NCBI GenBank assembly: GCA_023382455.1
Contig: JAHDVX010000005.1
Span: forward strand, 62,001-126,000
Source of the DNA: Flavobacteriales bacterium
Lineage (GTDB): Bacteria > Bacteroidota > Bacteroidia > Flavobacteriales_F > PHOS-HE28
Direction: 5' to 3'
Length of the DNA: 64,000 nucleotides
Every line of letters starts with the position of its first letter. Position 1 is the stretch's first letter. This document shows positions 31,135 through 37,678 of this stretch, in pieces. Made by a program: the position numbers and the translations under genes. A model generated the notes under the pieces. That model had not been told where the DNA came from. It did no database searches and saw only the letters and a program-made list of their open reading frames with translations.

Positions 31135-33078
31135 TCAGGGCGTACCCATCACCTGCTCCACCTCGATGCGCCGCTCCTTTGCTGCGCCCACGCTGTACAC
31201 GCTGTGGCGGAGGTCATCCAGCCGGTCGCTCACGGAGGTGTCGGCGGTGCTCTTTCCGAACGGTTTGGCAACGAGCGTGAGCCGCCCGCCGTTGACCGCC
31301 GTGCCGTCCAGGTAGGGCAGGAGCTTGGCCCCATCGGCGCGGCGCAGGTAGTTCGCCAGGCTGGCGATGCGGCGCATCGAGAGGTTCTTGTTGTAGTCGC
31401 TCTTGGCCAATGGGCTGGCGTAGCCGCGGATCACCAACGTGATCTGTTGGCCTTCATCCAAGGCTTCGGTGAGCAGCGTGATGAAGTCGTTGAGTTGCGC
31501 ATAGCCTGCTTCCACATGATCCCCGAAGAATGCATCGAAGGCCGCACTGCCGCCCGCGATACTGCTCCAGGCCGAATCGTATGTCGGCTTCAGGGCCTGA
31601 TAGCTGCGGAAGGTCTGGGCATAGTCCAATGTGGTGGTGGTGTCCCAACTGCGTGGATTCGGCTCGTCGTTGTGGAAGTACAGGCGGATGGGCAGCTTTT
31701 CGCGCAGCGAGGTGATGCGCTTGGCTGCCTCAATGGCCCTTACGGTGTCAACGGTAATGATCGGCGGAGGCTCCTTTGCTTGACCTGGATACCGGAACCG
31801 GTACAGGTCGTTGCAGCAGGTGCTTCCTTCTTCCGCGAACGAACCCTCGCGGTTGCTGGTGAACCAGCCCTGCCGGGACTTCCCGTCGTAAGCGGGGTAC
31901 AGGTCGTTCGCCGGTCCGTTGAAGGGCGGACCCATGTTCTCCGGCTTCCCCGGAGCCGCTGTGCTGTACCTGCATTTGAACAGGTCGTAGCCGCCCAGCC
32001 CGGGCAGGAAATCGGAGCTGAAGTAGAGCGTGCTGTCGGTGGCATCGAAATAGGGCGTCACCTCGTTGCCGGGCGTGTTCACCGCAGCGCCCAGCGGTTT
32101 CAATTCGCCCAGCTTGTTGCCTACGAGCAGGCCTTGCCAGATGTCCATGCCGCCTTGTCCGCCCGGCATGTTGCTCGCGAAGAAGAGCATCTCCGCACCT
32201 TCGATGGCGGCCACCATGGGCTGGGTGGCGGTGCTGCCCGGCACACGCAGCAGCACGGTGCCCGTGTCGTCCATGTGGTGCAGGTCCAGCGCATGGATGG
32301 CGAATTCGCCCGGGGCTTCCTCGCGGCTGAAGAAATACCAGCGCCCGTCCAAGCTCCAGGTGCTGTTGGCGTTATTGCGGCCGTTGTCCACGTTGATCGG
32401 CAAGGCTTCCGGTTCCGACCACTTCCCCGCATTTTCATGAGCCCGGAAGATCCTTGCCTTGTAGTCCGCGGTGTCCTCCACCTCGCCGTCCGCATTCACA
32501 TTCCCGCGCAGTGACGTGAAGTACAGCGCGCTGTCCGGCCCGATGCGTGCCCCGAACTCGCTGGCAAAGCTGTTCACCGGCATGGGCAGGTGCTCCACTT
32601 CCACGATGCTGTCGGGCTTCATTTCCATGGCCAGGCGGCAGCCTTCCAGCCCGTTCTCCGCGCGCTGCGCCACCACCGAATGTTTGTCAAGTTCCTTCTG
32701 CTTCACCTTGGCCCAGGTGCGTGCGGCATCGTGGTACTGCACCATGCTCATTTGCATTTCCGCCAGCCAGGGCAGGGCTTCCGGGTGCTTCCGGCCGTGG
32801 TCCTTGCGCTGCACCTTGTCGTAGAAAAGCGCGGCCTCGCCGTACTGGTGGCTCAGCCGGCAGGCCTCGGCGTACTTCCATTGTGTCTCCATGATCCCGG
32901 GTGCCGCCTGCAAGGCCTCGCCGTAATAGCGCGATGCGCCGTAATGCTCGCCCAGCGCCATGGCATGATCGCCCCAAGTGATGAGCTGCGCGGCACTTTG
33001 TGCCGATCCGGCCATGGCCATCAGCACGGCGCCCATCAGCACCAGCAGGCGGAGGCTTCGCTTTCCCGGCTTCATCAC
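31135..33078 (-). CDS. OmpA-family protein with TPR and PD40 repeats, T9SS-associated
   Basis: 647 residues from ATG 33078, overlapping the PorP stop by 4 bp (ATGA-like). After the signal peptide (LRLLVLMGAVLMAMAGSAQ) it has tetratricopeptide-like helices (YGASRYYGEALQAAPGIMET; WKYAEACRLSHQYGEAALFY), then a beta-propeller of PD40-type blades (WSLDGRWYFFSREEAPGEF; GAEMLFFASNMPGGQGGMDI; DSTLYFSSDFLPGLGGYDLF), then an OmpA-like peptidoglycan-binding part (LVIRGYASPLAKSDYNKNLS). Its layout matches PorE/SprE-like outer-membrane partners of PorP. In this operon it would connect the surface protein to the cell wall. The tail after OmpA is longer than usual. Confidence 0.88.
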   Translation of the reverse strand: MMKPGKRSLRLLVLMGAVLMAMAGSAQSAAQLITWGDHAMALGEHYGASRYYGEALQAAPGIMETQWKYAEACRLSHQYGEAALFYDKVQRKDHGRKHPEALPWLAEMQMSMVQYHDAARTWAKVKQKELDKHSVVAQRAENGLEGCRLAMEMKPDSIVEVEHLPMPVNSFASEFGARIGPDSALYFTSLRGNVNADGEVEDTADYKARIFRAHENAGKWSEPEALPINVDNGRNNANSTWSLDGRWYFFSREEAPGEFAIHALDLHHMDDTGTVLLRVPGSTATQPMVAAIEGAEMLFFASNMPGGQGGMDIWQGLLVGNKLGELKPLGAAVNTPGNEVTPYFDATDSTLYFSSDFLPGLGGYDLFKCRYSTAAPGKPENMGPPFNGPANDLYPAYDGKSRQGWFTSNREGSFAEEGSTCCNDLYRFRYPGQAKEPPPIITVDTVRAIEAAKRITSLREKLPIRLYFHNDEPNPRSWDTTTTLDYAQTFRSYQALKPTYDSAWSSIAGGSAAFDAFFGDHVEAGYAQLNDFITLLTEALDEGQQITLVIRGYASPLAKSDYNKNLSMRRIASLANYLRRADGAKLLPYLDGTAVNGGRLTLVAKPFGKSTADTSVSDRLDDLRHSVYSVGAAKERRIEVEQVMGTP

Positions 33079-34151
33079 AATTGGTCCGGACAGGCTTTGA
33101 AATGCACGGGTACCGCCGGGCGCTTGCGGAACACGCGGATGGCCGTCACCTCGAAGCCGCCCCGATTGCGGCTCGCGGGTTCCAGGCGGCTCAGGTTGAT
33201 GTCGTAGCTGGCGCCGATGGTCCAGCCGTCGTGTTCCAGGCCCGCGTAGAGGTAGCCCGCATCCTTGGCCCGCATGAACAGCCCGGCCTGCACGGTGCGC
33301 AGCAGGCCCCAGCGGTCCAGCAGGATGTAACGGAGCATGCCCCCGGCGTCAAGCTCGCGGAATTTCCCTTGGCCTTGCCATTGGAGCATGGGCAGCAGGT
33401 CCAGCTTTTCGCTTACGGGGAACTGTGCGCCTGCATGCACCACCGTGCGCAGGTCCAACGGCGATGGCTGGGCGTTGAAGAGGGATACGTCCGGCGTGGT
33501 GAGGTTGAACAGCGCCAATCCGCCGTGGAAAGCATGCCGCTTGTCCGGCGACCAGCGGTAGCCCACGCCTGCATGCACATCGGCGCGGGATCGGGCATCA
33601 CGCGGGATCTGTTCGCCGGTGCCGAGCGAAGGGTCGTAGCTAAAGCCGTTGTACTGGGCGTCGAAGCGCAGACCACCGGTGCTGATGCCCACCTGCGTGA
33701 ACCCGAATTGCGTGCCCGCGCTCAGGTGGTGGTGCCTGCCCGCATCCAGGGCCACGGTCCAGCTGGCGCCGAGGTCGGCGTGAAAGGTGTTGAGCCGCGA
33801 GGTGCCGGCCCGGTCGTTGTACAACCAGGCGCCGAGCCCGAGGCCTTCCACGCCGGCCAGGTTCGCCGCGTCGCCGCCGATGCCGAAGGTGCTGTACGGC
33901 ACGGTGACGCTTCGCCATTGCTGGCGGTAGATCGCGCCCAGCCTGTAATCCCCATCGAACTGTCCGATGTTTCCGGGGTTCTGCGCGTACGGCGCGTTGA
34001 AGAATTGGGAGAAATGGATGTCCTGGGCGCGGAGGGTACCGCAGGTGAATGCCGCCAAGAGCCACAAGCACCAAGCCGCAAGCTGCAAGCCGCAAGCTTC
34101 GGGCTTCCCGGCTTGCAGCTTGTGGCTTGTGGCCTGCATCTTCATCTTCAT
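33075..34151 (-). CDS. PorP/SprF family type IX secretion outer-membrane protein
   Basis: 358 residues from ATG 34151, which overlaps the upstream stop by one base (TGATG). PorP/SprF proteins are 14-strand outer-membrane barrels that hold T9SS surface proteins. The mature start DIHFSQFFNAPYAQNPGNIG is the family hallmark, followed by repeated barrel strands (DYRLGAIYRQQWRSVTVPYS; LGLGAWLYNDRAGTSRLNTF; GVGYRWSPDKRHAFHGGLAL) and a last strand ending in a basic tail. The signal peptide is unusual: codons 6-33 (ATSHKLQAGKPEACGLQLAA then WCLWLLA) are encoded by a palindromic AAGCTGCAAGC-type repeat (34062-34132). The next gene is OmpA-like. Confidence 0.92.
   Translation of the reverse strand: MKMKMQATSHKLQAGKPEACGLQLAAWCLWLLAAFTCGTLRAQDIHFSQFFNAPYAQNPGNIGQFDGDYRLGAIYRQQWRSVTVPYSTFGIGGDAANLAGVEGLGLGAWLYNDRAGTSRLNTFHADLGASWTVALDAGRHHHLSAGTQFGFTQVGISTGGLRFDAQYNGFSYDPSLGTGEQIPRDARSRADVHAGVGYRWSPDKRHAFHGGLALFNLTTPDVSLFNAQPSPLDLRTVVHAGAQFPVSEKLDLLPMLQWQGQGKFRELDAGGMLRYILLDRWGLLRTVQAGLFMRAKDAGYLYAGLEHDGWTIGASYDINLSRLEPASRNRGGFEVTAIRVFRKRPAVPVHFKACPDQL
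34062..34132. repeat. Palindromic AAGC-rich repeat inside the PorP signal-peptide coding region
   Basis: The plus strand carries CCACAAGCACCAAGCCGCAA then GCTGCAAGCCG (34062-34092), a 16-base loop and CGGCTTGCAGCTTGTGGCTTGTGG (34109-34132). The two arms pair almost perfectly. The units are AAGC-CNC-AAGC-type. It lies fully inside codons 6-33 of the PorP/SprF gene and is read in frame. Confidence 0.85.
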
Positions 34152-37100
34152 CACCGGATCACCGTTACATTCCCCTTGTGGAAATACGTCTGCCCGTCCA
34201 CGCATTCCACGGTCAGCCAATACACGTAGACCGCCGGGTCCACCGGCTTGCCCTTGTACCGCCCATCCCAGCTTTCCGCCGGGTCATCGGTGCTGTACAC
34301 CAGTTCTCCCCAACGGTCGAACACCTTGAATTCCATGCTGGCGATGTGGCGGCCCCGCACGAACAGCGCATCGTTGTTGCCATCGCCGTTGGGCGTAAAG
34401 GCATCGGGCACGAAGATGTCCGGGTCGTCGCAGACCAGTTCGTGCACCTTCACCGTCACGGAATCCACGGCGGTGCACGTGCCGTCGCTCACGGTGACGA
34501 TGAACGTGGTGGTGGCCTGCACCATGGCCGTGGGTGCCGCAATGGCCGGGTCGCTCACCGCGGTGGCGGGTTGCCAACTGTAGGTGACGCCGTTGGCCGG
34601 CGTGGCCAGCAGGTGGACCGTGGTCCCCGGAACCACCAGGTCCTGGTCCACGTTGGCGGTCACCACCGCGCCGTTCATCAACGACACGTTCACCCAGGCA
34701 CTGTCGGACCAAGTGCATCCGCCGGGTGCGGTCACCGAGGCGGCGAACCACGTGGCGTCGGGCGGGCTCACGGTGATCTGTGTGCTGCCTTGGCCCGAAA
34801 GTACCAGGCCCGCCGGGGACCAGGAGATGGAGGACCCCGCATCAATGCCGCTGAGGCTCACCAGGGCGGTGTCATCGGCGCAGATCTGCAGGTCCGGTGA
34901 GATGGCGGCCTGGGCCAGGGAGGTGGTCACGGTCAACTGTCCGGTGGCTACGCAGCCGCCACCGCTGGAGGCTTGCACATGGAAGGTGCCGGCCGCCACG
35001 GGGTTGAGGAGGGCGGTGCTGTCCGTGGGTGAGGCATTCAGCGTATCGGTGAATTGGGCGTTGGAGGACCATTGCCACGTGAGGGCGGTGCCCTGTGCAT
35101 CGGCCACGAGCAGCAGGCTGTCCGTGGGGCCGCACACGGCGATGTCCGCCAACGCTTGCAGGCTGGGTGCGGCAGGCCCCACCTGCACCTGGATGCTGGC
35201 GGAGTCCATGCCGTTGCAGGTCGCGGGGTTGCTGGCGATGAGGCTCACGGTGTACGTGCCGGGTGCGGCGTACGTATGCGATGGAGCCTGGGCCGTGGAG
35301 GTGGTGCCATCGCCGAAGTCCCAGAGCCAGGAGCTGCCCAGGCTTCCCAGGTTGCTGAACTGCACCGTGCTTCCGGCGCATATCAGGGGAGGGGCGCTCA
35401 ACCCGGCGATGACCAGCGGCGCATCGAAGTCGAACTTGAAGACGCCCAGGTTGCAGTTCGGCGAGTTGTTGGTGCTGCTCCACGCGTTGGGCGAGCTGGG
35501 GAAGTCGTCGTGCCCGCCGCATCCTGCGCACACCGCGCCGTAGACCCGTCCGCGCCGGTCGAAACGGCTGGTGCCACCGTCCACATGCTCCAGGCTCTGC
35601 GGCCCGCCGAAGTAGGTGGCGTAGGCCAGCCCCGTCATGTCGATATCGTAGACCGCCAGGTAGAAATCGTTGCCGTCCGTGGTGGGCTGATAGGCATCGG
35701 GCGTCACCGGAAGCCCGTTGGTGGTGAGGGAGCCCTGCACGGCGCTGCCCCATCCGCTGATGTAGATCTTGTCGCAGTAGTCCACCAGGAAGGCGGTGGG
35801 CGAGATGTTGGGCACACCTACGCCGGGCCCGCTGGTGGCGCCCGTGCGCGTGCTCCACACCGTGCTGCCGAGGTCATTGGCCACCTTGGCCAGCAGTTGC
35901 CCGCCGCCAGCCTGGGAGTAGCTGGCGCCACTGATCAGCGCACCGGCAGGCGCGGCAGTCTGGCCGAACAGGTAGATGTGGTCCGCATCGTCCAGGTCCA
36001 CGAAGTAGAATTGGTCGTACGCATCGCTTCCGTAGTAGGTGGCGGCCAGCAGGTTGCTTCCGTCCGCAGTGAACTTGGCCACGAAGGCATCGGCGCTGCC
36101 GCCGTTGTACACGGGGCCCAGCGAACCCGCGGTGCCGGGGATGTTGATGGAGAAGGTGCCGCCGGCGATGATGATGCTTCCTTGGCTGTCCTGCTCCAGG
36201 GAATAGGCCGCATCCGCTTGGCTGCCCCCGAAGAAGGTGCTCCAGTTCAGTGTGGTGAACCCGGGGTCGGTCTCGAACAGCACCGCATCATGCGGGCCGC
36301 CGGCAAAAGTGGTGCTGAAGGCGCCCGGCGTAGTGGGGAAGTTGGTGCTTTGCGTGCAGCTGGCGACCAGGATGTTGCCGTTGGCGGCCAGTTCCACCTC
36401 GCCGCGCATCTCGTCGGCGTAGTTCATCCGCAGGTTGCCGGAACTGTTGATGCCATCGTTGCCGCTGCCGCCGATGTAGGTGCTGCCCAGCAGTTGGCTG
36501 CCATCGGCGCTCAGCCGCGCCAGCACCATGTCCGTGCCCTGCGGATACCGGGTGCCGATGCCCACCGGCGTGAAGCTGGTGCCGCCGCCGAATGCGGGTT
36601 GCAGCGCGCCCGCCGTGGTCGGAAAATTGGAGGAACCCGTGGTGCCCAGCACGATGAGCTCCCCGCTGGCATTCACGATCAGGCTGTGCGGCAGGTCGTC
36701 GCCTTGGCCACCAAGGAAGGTGCTCCAGATCAGGAAGGTGCCGGTGGTGTCCCACTTGGTCAGCGCCATGTCGGTGCCCGGGTTCTGGTTGCCCGTGCCG
36801 CCATTCCAGGTCACGTCATAAGCGCCCACCGTGCTCGGGTAGCCTTGCCCGAAGGCGCTGCTGCCGGAGTAGAGGAAGCCCGCCGCATCGAAGGTGGCGG
36901 TGTAGCCGAAGTTGTCCGATGTGGAGCCCGAGTAACTGCTGAAGGCGATGGTGGGGTCGATCACCAGTTCGAATGCCCGGTCGTATTCGCCGACCTGGAA
37001 CGTTACCACGTTGCCTTTGAGCTGGTAGCGGCAGGCCACGCGCACTTGTTCACCACCTTTCATCTGGTAGGCCAGCGGAACTTCCTCGATCATCGGCCCC

Positions 37101-37678
37101 AATGACGTCCCGATCATCAGGCGGCCGTTCTCCAAGGCGATCTTGTCGGCGCCTTCGTAGGTGAAGCGGAGGTCCGCAGGATTAGCCCCGGGCGCCAACA
37201 CCAGATCGTATTTCAGCACCTCGCCCCCTTGCCGCAGCCGCAGGTCCACGCCGGGATACAGCCCGTGCTGCACCACGATGGACCAGGCATGGGCGTTGGC
37301 GGCCCACTGCGTGGGGTCGTTCCCGATGAAGTAGTTGTACGCACCGCGCTGCACGCCCAACCCTTCGCAACGCACGGGGCCAGGTGCATCCAGGAAGCGC
37401 AACCGCAAGGCATGGTGTCGGATGGTGCGCGAGGCTTCCGGGTCATAGCCCGCCCCATGACCGGCGTGCAGCTTGGCGATGGCCGAGGCATCGTAACGGT
37501 CCACCAGGATGCTGCCCCGCTCGCACCAGATGGTGGCATCGGGCACCTCGGCCTTGAAGGTCACCGCCTGCGGCCACTGCCCCCGGTTCTCGATGAACCG
37601 GAGCGCGGGTTGGGCATGAAGGACGACACCGGACAGGAGCAAGGACAGGGAAAGGCAGCGCAGCGCTGAGGTAGGCAT
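34151..37678 (-). CDS. Large T9SS cell-surface protein with DUF7948, SBBP repeats, PKD and gliding C-terminal domain
   Basis: 1175 residues. A signal peptide (ALRCLSLSLLLSGVVLHAQ) is followed by a DUF7948 N-terminal domain starting FIENRGQWPQAVTFKAEVPD (about residues 25-250), then a long run of SBBP-type beta-propeller repeats (FLGGQGDDLPHSLIVNASGE; STYIGGSGNDGINSSGNLRM; STFFGGSQADAAYSLEQDSQ; about 250-740). A PKD domain follows (WLWDFGDGTTSTAQAPSHTY; about 760-840), with further beta-sandwich modules, and the end is a gliding-motility-associated C-terminal domain, DPDIFVPDAFTPNGDGNNDA (about 1085-1175). That domain is the export signal for T9SS cargo of the SprB type. The operon order cargo, PorP, OmpA suggests its own export partner. 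The SBBP repeats probably form a propeller exposed to the medium. Confidence 0.93.
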   Translation of the reverse strand: MPTSALRCLSLSLLLSGVVLHAQPALRFIENRGQWPQAVTFKAEVPDATIWCERGSILVDRYDASAIAKLHAGHGAGYDPEASRTIRHHALRLRFLDAPGPVRCEGLGVQRGAYNYFIGNDPTQWAANAHAWSIVVQHGLYPGVDLRLRQGGEVLKYDLVLAPGANPADLRFTYEGADKIALENGRLMIGTSLGPMIEEVPLAYQMKGGEQVRVACRYQLKGNVVTFQVGEYDRAFELVIDPTIAFSSYSGSTSDNFGYTATFDAAGFLYSGSSAFGQGYPSTVGAYDVTWNGGTGNQNPGTDMALTKWDTTGTFLIWSTFLGGQGDDLPHSLIVNASGELIVLGTTGSSNFPTTAGALQPAFGGGTSFTPVGIGTRYPQGTDMVLARLSADGSQLLGSTYIGGSGNDGINSSGNLRMNYADEMRGEVELAANGNILVASCTQSTNFPTTPGAFSTTFAGGPHDAVLFETDPGFTTLNWSTFFGGSQADAAYSLEQDSQGSIIIAGGTFSINIPGTAGSLGPVYNGGSADAFVAKFTADGSNLLAATYYGSDAYDQFYFVDLDDADHIYLFGQTAAPAGALISGASYSQAGGGQLLAKVANDLGSTVWSTRTGATSGPGVGVPNISPTAFLVDYCDKIYISGWGSAVQGSLTTNGLPVTPDAYQPTTDGNDFYLAVYDIDMTGLAYATYFGGPQSLEHVDGGTSRFDRRGRVYGAVCAGCGGHDDFPSSPNAWSSTNNSPNCNLGVFKFDFDAPLVIAGLSAPPLICAGSTVQFSNLGSLGSSWLWDFGDGTTSTAQAPSHTYAAPGTYTVSLIASNPATCNGMDSASIQVQVGPAAPSLQALADIAVCGPTDSLLLVADAQGTALTWQWSSNAQFTDTLNASPTDSTALLNPVAAGTFHVQASSGGGCVATGQLTVTTSLAQAAISPDLQICADDTALVSLSGIDAGSSISWSPAGLVLSGQGSTQITVSPPDATWFAASVTAPGGCTWSDSAWVNVSLMNGAVVTANVDQDLVVPGTTVHLLATPANGVTYSWQPATAVSDPAIAAPTAMVQATTTFIVTVSDGTCTAVDSVTVKVHELVCDDPDIFVPDAFTPNGDGNNDALFVRGRHIASMEFKVFDRWGELVYSTDDPAESWDGRYKGKPVDPAVYVYWLTVECVDGQTYFHKGNVTVIR

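Follow-up and report, generated by a model that had tools for sequence, protein, structure and literature searches.

An in-frame heptamer palindrome in the predicted PorP signal peptide of a Flavobacteriales bacterium, and the association of such repeats with S23 genes

Introduction

How does a palindromic repeat come to be translated within a signal peptide, and what does it contribute to the protein? The question is raised by a porP/sprF gene of a Flavobacteriales bacterium (assembly GCA_023382455.1), located in a stretch of 64,000 nucleotides (contig JAHDVX010000005.1, positions 62,001 to 126,000) hereafter termed the window. An earlier reading of the letters alone (the original prediction) had placed an inverted repeat in frame near the start of this gene.

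The porP palindrome and its translation

The porP/sprF coding sequence in the list of open reading frames (33075..34151 of the window, minus strand) encodes 358 amino acids and is assigned by PF11751 (E = 1.8e-33). The upstream gene (34151..37678, minus strand) contains DUF7948, PKD and a CHU_C type IX sorting domain, and its TGA shares one base (A) with the porP ATG at 34151, giving the TGATG overlap that had been described. The in-frame inverted repeat in the PorP signal peptide is likewise present, and slightly larger than the 34062-34132 first given: inverted repeat search, folding and arm mapping together define a palindrome at 34058..34136 (minus strand). Inverted repeat search places the arms at 34065-34092 and 34109-34136 (28 nt, 86% complementary). 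The original prediction spoke of AAGC/GCTT units; the repeat stands, but the actual unit is 7 nt long, AAGCYRC, and the palindrome consists of degenerate heptamers arrayed in inverted orientation, (AAGCYRC)n / (GYRGCTT)n. Its predicted fold is strong both as RNA (z = -5.2) and as single-stranded DNA (z = -7.3), with 0/200 shuffles as good in either case.

On the coding strand, the 5′ arm (CAGGCCACAAGCCACAAGCTGCAAGCCGGGAAGC, 34103..34136, minus strand) forms codons 6-17 and is translated as QATSHKLQAGKP, part of the basic n-region, while the 3′ arm (GCTTGCGGCTTGCAGCTTGCGGCTTGGTGCTTGTGGCTCT, 34058..34097, minus strand) forms codons 19-32, translated as ACGLQLAAWCLWLL, the hydrophobic core. The hydrophobic window LAAWCLWLLAAF has a hydropathy of 2.16, compared with 2.07-2.36 in the signal peptides of repeat-free relatives, and as predicted from hydropathy PorP has the features of a Sec signal peptide, namely a basic n-region and a hydrophobic core at the N-terminus. 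Judged by hydropathy and relatives, the palindrome supplies much of the predicted n-region and most of the predicted core, and PorP would be exported with a palindrome-encoded signal peptide. The repeat had been thought to leave a usable hydrophobic core; arm mapping supports a stronger statement, as the 3′ arm is itself most of that core.

This property appears to follow from the orientation of the arms. Whichever strand is read, the AAGC arm of an AAGC...GCTT palindrome comes first, and any copy in frame would therefore encode a basic polar peptide and then a hydrophobic one. In simulation the first arm averages a hydropathy of -0.85 with a charge of +1.7, and the second a hydropathy of +1.68; only 0.9% of random stop-free heptamers match the basic-then-hydrophobic pattern on both counts. 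AAGC arrays are also found at the N-termini of four other secreted proteins: two PorP paralogues and, with one arm only, a phosphoesterase-like protein in G015, and a protein in G019 whose tail is of the type IX sorting kind.

Sister copies in the genome

The exact pattern AAGCYRCAAGCYRCAAGC has 8 matches at 4 places in the 3.43-Mb genome, against 0 for the reversed control. With up to 3 mismatches (≤3), the whole genome yields 100 matches compared with 16 in the control, and these cluster at ~12 places. The majority of AAGC copies are intergenic, and several lie shortly upstream of start codons, preceding genes read as recG, surE and glyS as well as an M28 peptidase gene. The names recX, recG, surE and glyS are read from the sequences, the M28 peptidase being the one among these genes tested with Pfam. 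Besides porP, in-frame copies occur twice within an IcmF-type fused mutase, a 1253-aa open reading frame whose domains are B12-binding, MeaB GTPase and mutase, and once in a fused MutA-MutB-like frame, at the linker.

A scan for any 7-nt array, applied to 858 kb taken in stretches (25% of the genome), found ~12, of which those in coding sequence are the porP palindrome and the two IcmF sites. A simple codon-bias gene finder calls ~95% of this sample coding; that so few arrays are coding indicates strong exclusion from genes, though not without exceptions. The ~12 sister copies bear out the view that the porP palindrome is one copy of a dispersed, mostly intergenic repeat that here lies in frame, where an isolated repeat would have suggested chance. 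Signal-peptide and start regions had been named as places to look for further copies; they recur at signal peptides in relatives, and some are shortly before starts.

Two further observations concern gene starts. At the 5′ end of the recX-like gene (L031, G000:C7:37601-37675, G000 being this genome), whose start codon may fall within an arm, and of the gene for the secreted M28 peptidase (L038, G000:C12:109532-109603), an AAGC palindrome may supply the start codon or first codons.

Orthologous sites across the genus

Orthologous sites were compared in 45 genomes of the genus, mostly metagenome assemblies; among named relatives, the nearest are metagenome assemblies of uncultured Flavobacteriales, and an order-level search for relatives yielded the same genus only. 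Among these genomes, IcmF has in-frame inserts at two positions in nearly every species, and the inserts belong to unrelated repeat families: SHKPQA/SHEPRAT (AAGC type), GVDELRVSGLRV, ADGSVSGLADG, ANGPISELAN and others. The second insert is absent in L095, L098 and L099, and the first is nearly absent in L102. Periodicity of 7 nt is higher in the inserts than in the gene body (17.0/28 versus 10.6), and at site 1, the site for which fold scores are used, fold z reaches -7. Where the IcmF locus is complete, the reading frame is intact through every insert, an indication that read-through is under selection.

The porP site varies in a similar manner. Signal peptides of 19-31 aa and no structure occur in seven species, and signal peptides of 41-57 aa containing hairpins of unrelated sequence occur in L056 (this genome), L071, L072 and L074 (fold z of -4.3, -6.9, -6.6 and -4.3, respectively), with weaker folds in L066 and L070. 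Palindrome-free relatives have a different, shorter PorP N-terminus, rather than the same N-terminus encoded without the repeat that chance would have suggested. The MutA-MutB linker is a third site with an empty/filled pattern, L265 being without the repeat. Dispersed copies, in-frame placement and orthologous sites both empty and differently filled are all observed directly. The relatives compared are too far apart for a target-site duplication to be read, and none showed an exact gain or loss with one; of the features of a MITE, inverted arms are present and no parental transposase was found.

The icmF loci show other peculiarities. Over ~800 nt, including the second palindrome, the genes of L086 and L087 (G000 and G034) are practically identical, compared with 70-92% likeness elsewhere, which looks like recombination, with contamination of one assembly as the alternative. 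Partial C-terminal copies of icmF are also found within ~15 kb of the full gene (G000:C7:97627-98871 and C7:108021-108719, in L319 and L320); one contains a different kind of in-frame insert, and similar partial copies exist in many relatives.

Association with S23 genes

If the palindromes are dispersed, what might disperse them? No gene lies inside the porP palindrome itself. Elsewhere in this genome a pair of AAGC arrays flanks a gene of the S23 family (PF05635; C15:56146-56463, L034), beside the gene read as glyS. PF05635 is present in 44/45 genus genomes and 116/148 genomes of the phylum, and in 0/14 control genomes. S23 genes have 7-nt arrays on both sides, with periodicities of 20.6 and 21.1 against 13.8 about 1 kb away, and the enrichment is significant in the genus (Mann-Whitney, p = 3e-15) and in the phylum sample (p = 8e-11). 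S23 genes are associated with inverted heptamer arrays: pairing of the two flanks exceeds 99% of the mismatched-flank control at 8/30 loci in the genus and 12/30 in the phylum sample. A strong inverted pair is found at only part of the S23 loci, and some loci, e.g., L189, are built of 8-nt units. Large open reading frames around S23 genes were considered as host proteins and set aside; they look out of frame or of low complexity and lie upstream of the S23 start.

We know of no recombinase or nuclease activity of S23 proteins. The only solved relative found was 2gsc. In the open-access literature, no report was found that connects heptamer palindromes to S23 genes or any palindrome to a signal peptide. 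The solo palindromes, including the porP copy, may be a small form of S23 elements. A broader proposal, which we advance tentatively and hold to be somewhat less likely true than false, is that S23 is the trans-acting agent of heptamer palindromes mobile across the Bacteroidota, whose solo copies invade genes in frame and whose AAGC flavor is a ready-made signal peptide.

Other in-frame insertions in the genus

Heptamer palindromes are not the only in-frame insertions in this genus. DUF559 is found in frame in leucyl-tRNA synthetase, IcmF, HsdM, HsdR and an Eco57I-type methylase, most often between the arms of another palindrome family; it was rejected as a partner of the heptamers, given this different family and a slight 7-nt signal. 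Six genomes have the nuclease-like DUF559 domain in frame where the editing domain of leucyl-tRNA synthetase begins (L147, L148, L150, L154, L155 and L156, in G031, G020, G006, G024, G004 and G007, with Pfam confirmation for L147 and L154), flanked by palindrome-family arms CTCACCCC..CTCTCC / GGAGAGGGG. The IcmF of L104/L152 (G039) and L105/L153 (G025) has DUF559 between palindromic arms where other species have heptamer palindromes. The restriction-modification proteins HsdM, Eco57I-type methylase and HsdR contain in-frame DUF559 in L146 (G033), L151 (G042), L159 (G040) and L160 (G037), the last read from sequence only. The HsdR of this genome (L273, G000:C2:247500-252500) has an in-frame Y1 transposase domain flanked by repeat-encoded GGPPGPPRSTG peptides; L278 and L279 also have the Y1 domain. 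Taken together, the DUF559, Y1 and heptamer cases make in-frame palindromic inserts a general habit of the genus.

Origin of the palindrome

We consider it probable that palindromic elements of degenerate 7-nt units spread and are tolerated in genes, and that the porP stretch is one such element in solo form, used here as a signal peptide. The elements lie mostly between genes; copies within genes would persist if their units are stop-free, their length keeps the frame and the position tolerates extra residues, as signal-peptide N-termini and interdomain linkers may. In porP the AAGC flavor would be more than tolerated, being translated as a basic polar and then a hydrophobic segment. The elements presumably move, and may be spread by S23 or an S23-dependent process.

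Could the arrays instead arise where they stand? Replication slippage would make short heptamer arrays at tolerant sites (linkers, n-regions of signal peptides), and small inverted repeats would let template switching render them palindromic, with no mobile element involved and S23 genes simply lying in similarly loose intergenic DNA. This origin, which we regard as possible but rather unlikely, would accommodate the different unit sequences at the same positions in different species, as well as the porP sites of L057, L058 and L060, which have tandem arrays only and lack an inverted arm. It also suits arms that are weakly mirrored: likeness is 15.7 within elements and 12.9 between them (sd 5), a weak excess that speaks little for exact mirror copying of the arms, which was considered and dropped. 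Local origin is harder to reconcile with one unit family at ~12 unlinked places in a single genome, also flanking the S23 gene there, and with the specificity of the S23-flank enrichment, which is absent 1 kb away and at Y1 transposases and slight at DUF559.

A role as a regulatory RNA hairpin, tuning PorP translation behind the coupled TGATG, is improbable. The original prediction suggested that an mRNA fold might modulate translation, and a strong hairpin is indeed predicted to start ~16 nt past the porP start codon, at a place where the unrelated sequences of L071, L072 and L074 also fold. As a general function the suggestion is not supported: seven relatives share the coupled porP start yet have neither palindrome nor structure, and others have weak structure or none. 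The same elements are, moreover, mostly between genes or deep inside IcmF and MutAB, and copies that sit mid-protein, as in IcmF, can have no role in initiation.

A REP-associated Y1 (RAYT) transposase, as in REP/REPIN systems, is a very unlikely agent of spread: of the 7 Y1 transposase genes in this genome none is close to any AAGC site, nor do their flanks show 7-nt periodicity, so that Y1 was rejected as the mobilizer. Signal peptides are compositionally biased, but a chance inverted repeat in biased coding sequence has a negligible probability, contradicted by the fold z-scores, the reversed-pattern control and the sister copies alike.

Comparison with known systems

The solo element proposed here most resembles two known systems. 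Rickettsia palindromic elements (RPE) are conserved families of ~150 bp (Ogata et al., 2000; reviewed in PMC10969869). As with RPE, the repeats described here are dispersed palindromes with intergenic copies that are also translated in frame in unrelated protein genes, the in-frame insertions being in PorP, twice in IcmF and in the MutA-MutB linker. Unlike RPE, they occur in another phylum, are ~80-100 nt long and linked to S23, and differ in unit sequence between species at the same site, with an AAGC flavor that would yield signal-peptide-like peptides; their degenerate 7-nt unit structure sets them apart from the RPE families as described in PMC10969869.

S23 genes of Coxiella and Leptospira lie in stem-loop intervening sequences of 23S rRNA, and the origin and function of the protein are unknown (PMC4990558). 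Stem-forming inverted repeats, a PF05635 gene in the loop and sporadic distribution are common to both systems, and the sister locus at C15:56146-56463 has inverted repeats around its PF05635 gene. However, the S23 loci described here are between protein genes and not in rRNA, their arms are heptamer arrays, and gene-less solo copies are found inside protein genes. Intervening sequences of this type are removed from the RNA by RNase III; here the frame stays open through every insert, which argues for translation.

TAACTGA heptamer repeats of Beggiatoaceae, Cyanobacteria and some Bacteroidetes (PMC4679880) are similarly dispersed 7-nt units, mostly intergenic and often just before starts. These are direct repeats, practically never inverted, in which forward stops block long translation, and no S23 link is reported for them; the units here are inverted AAGCYRC. 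Coding palindromes of Nematomorpha mitochondria (PMC6649704) are also inverted repeats translated inside genes, but are perfect and comprise conserved residues, in contrast to the imperfect arms and extra residues in tolerant positions seen here. REP/REPIN-RAYT systems (PMC3733652, PMC3116915) share short, palindromic, dispersed repeats; the elements here differ in having no Y1 transposase nearby, 7-nt units and coding copies. The porP element works like RPE and the rRNA intervening sequences and is a member of neither, nor of REP/RAYT, because at least one defining feature of each is lacking.

Implications

These data extend palindromic repeats translated in frame in conserved enzymes to a phylum beyond Rickettsia. 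Caution is called for with the gene models and domain alignments of these genomes, which include repeat-encoded segments. The association with heptamer arrays offers a hint, from genomic context, at what the widespread S23 proteins do, and porP is an example of a repeat that appears to hand a protein its export signal. Were S23 to drive the palindromes and the AAGC flavor to act as a signal peptide, bacteria could gain a new export signal, or replace an old one, in a single step.
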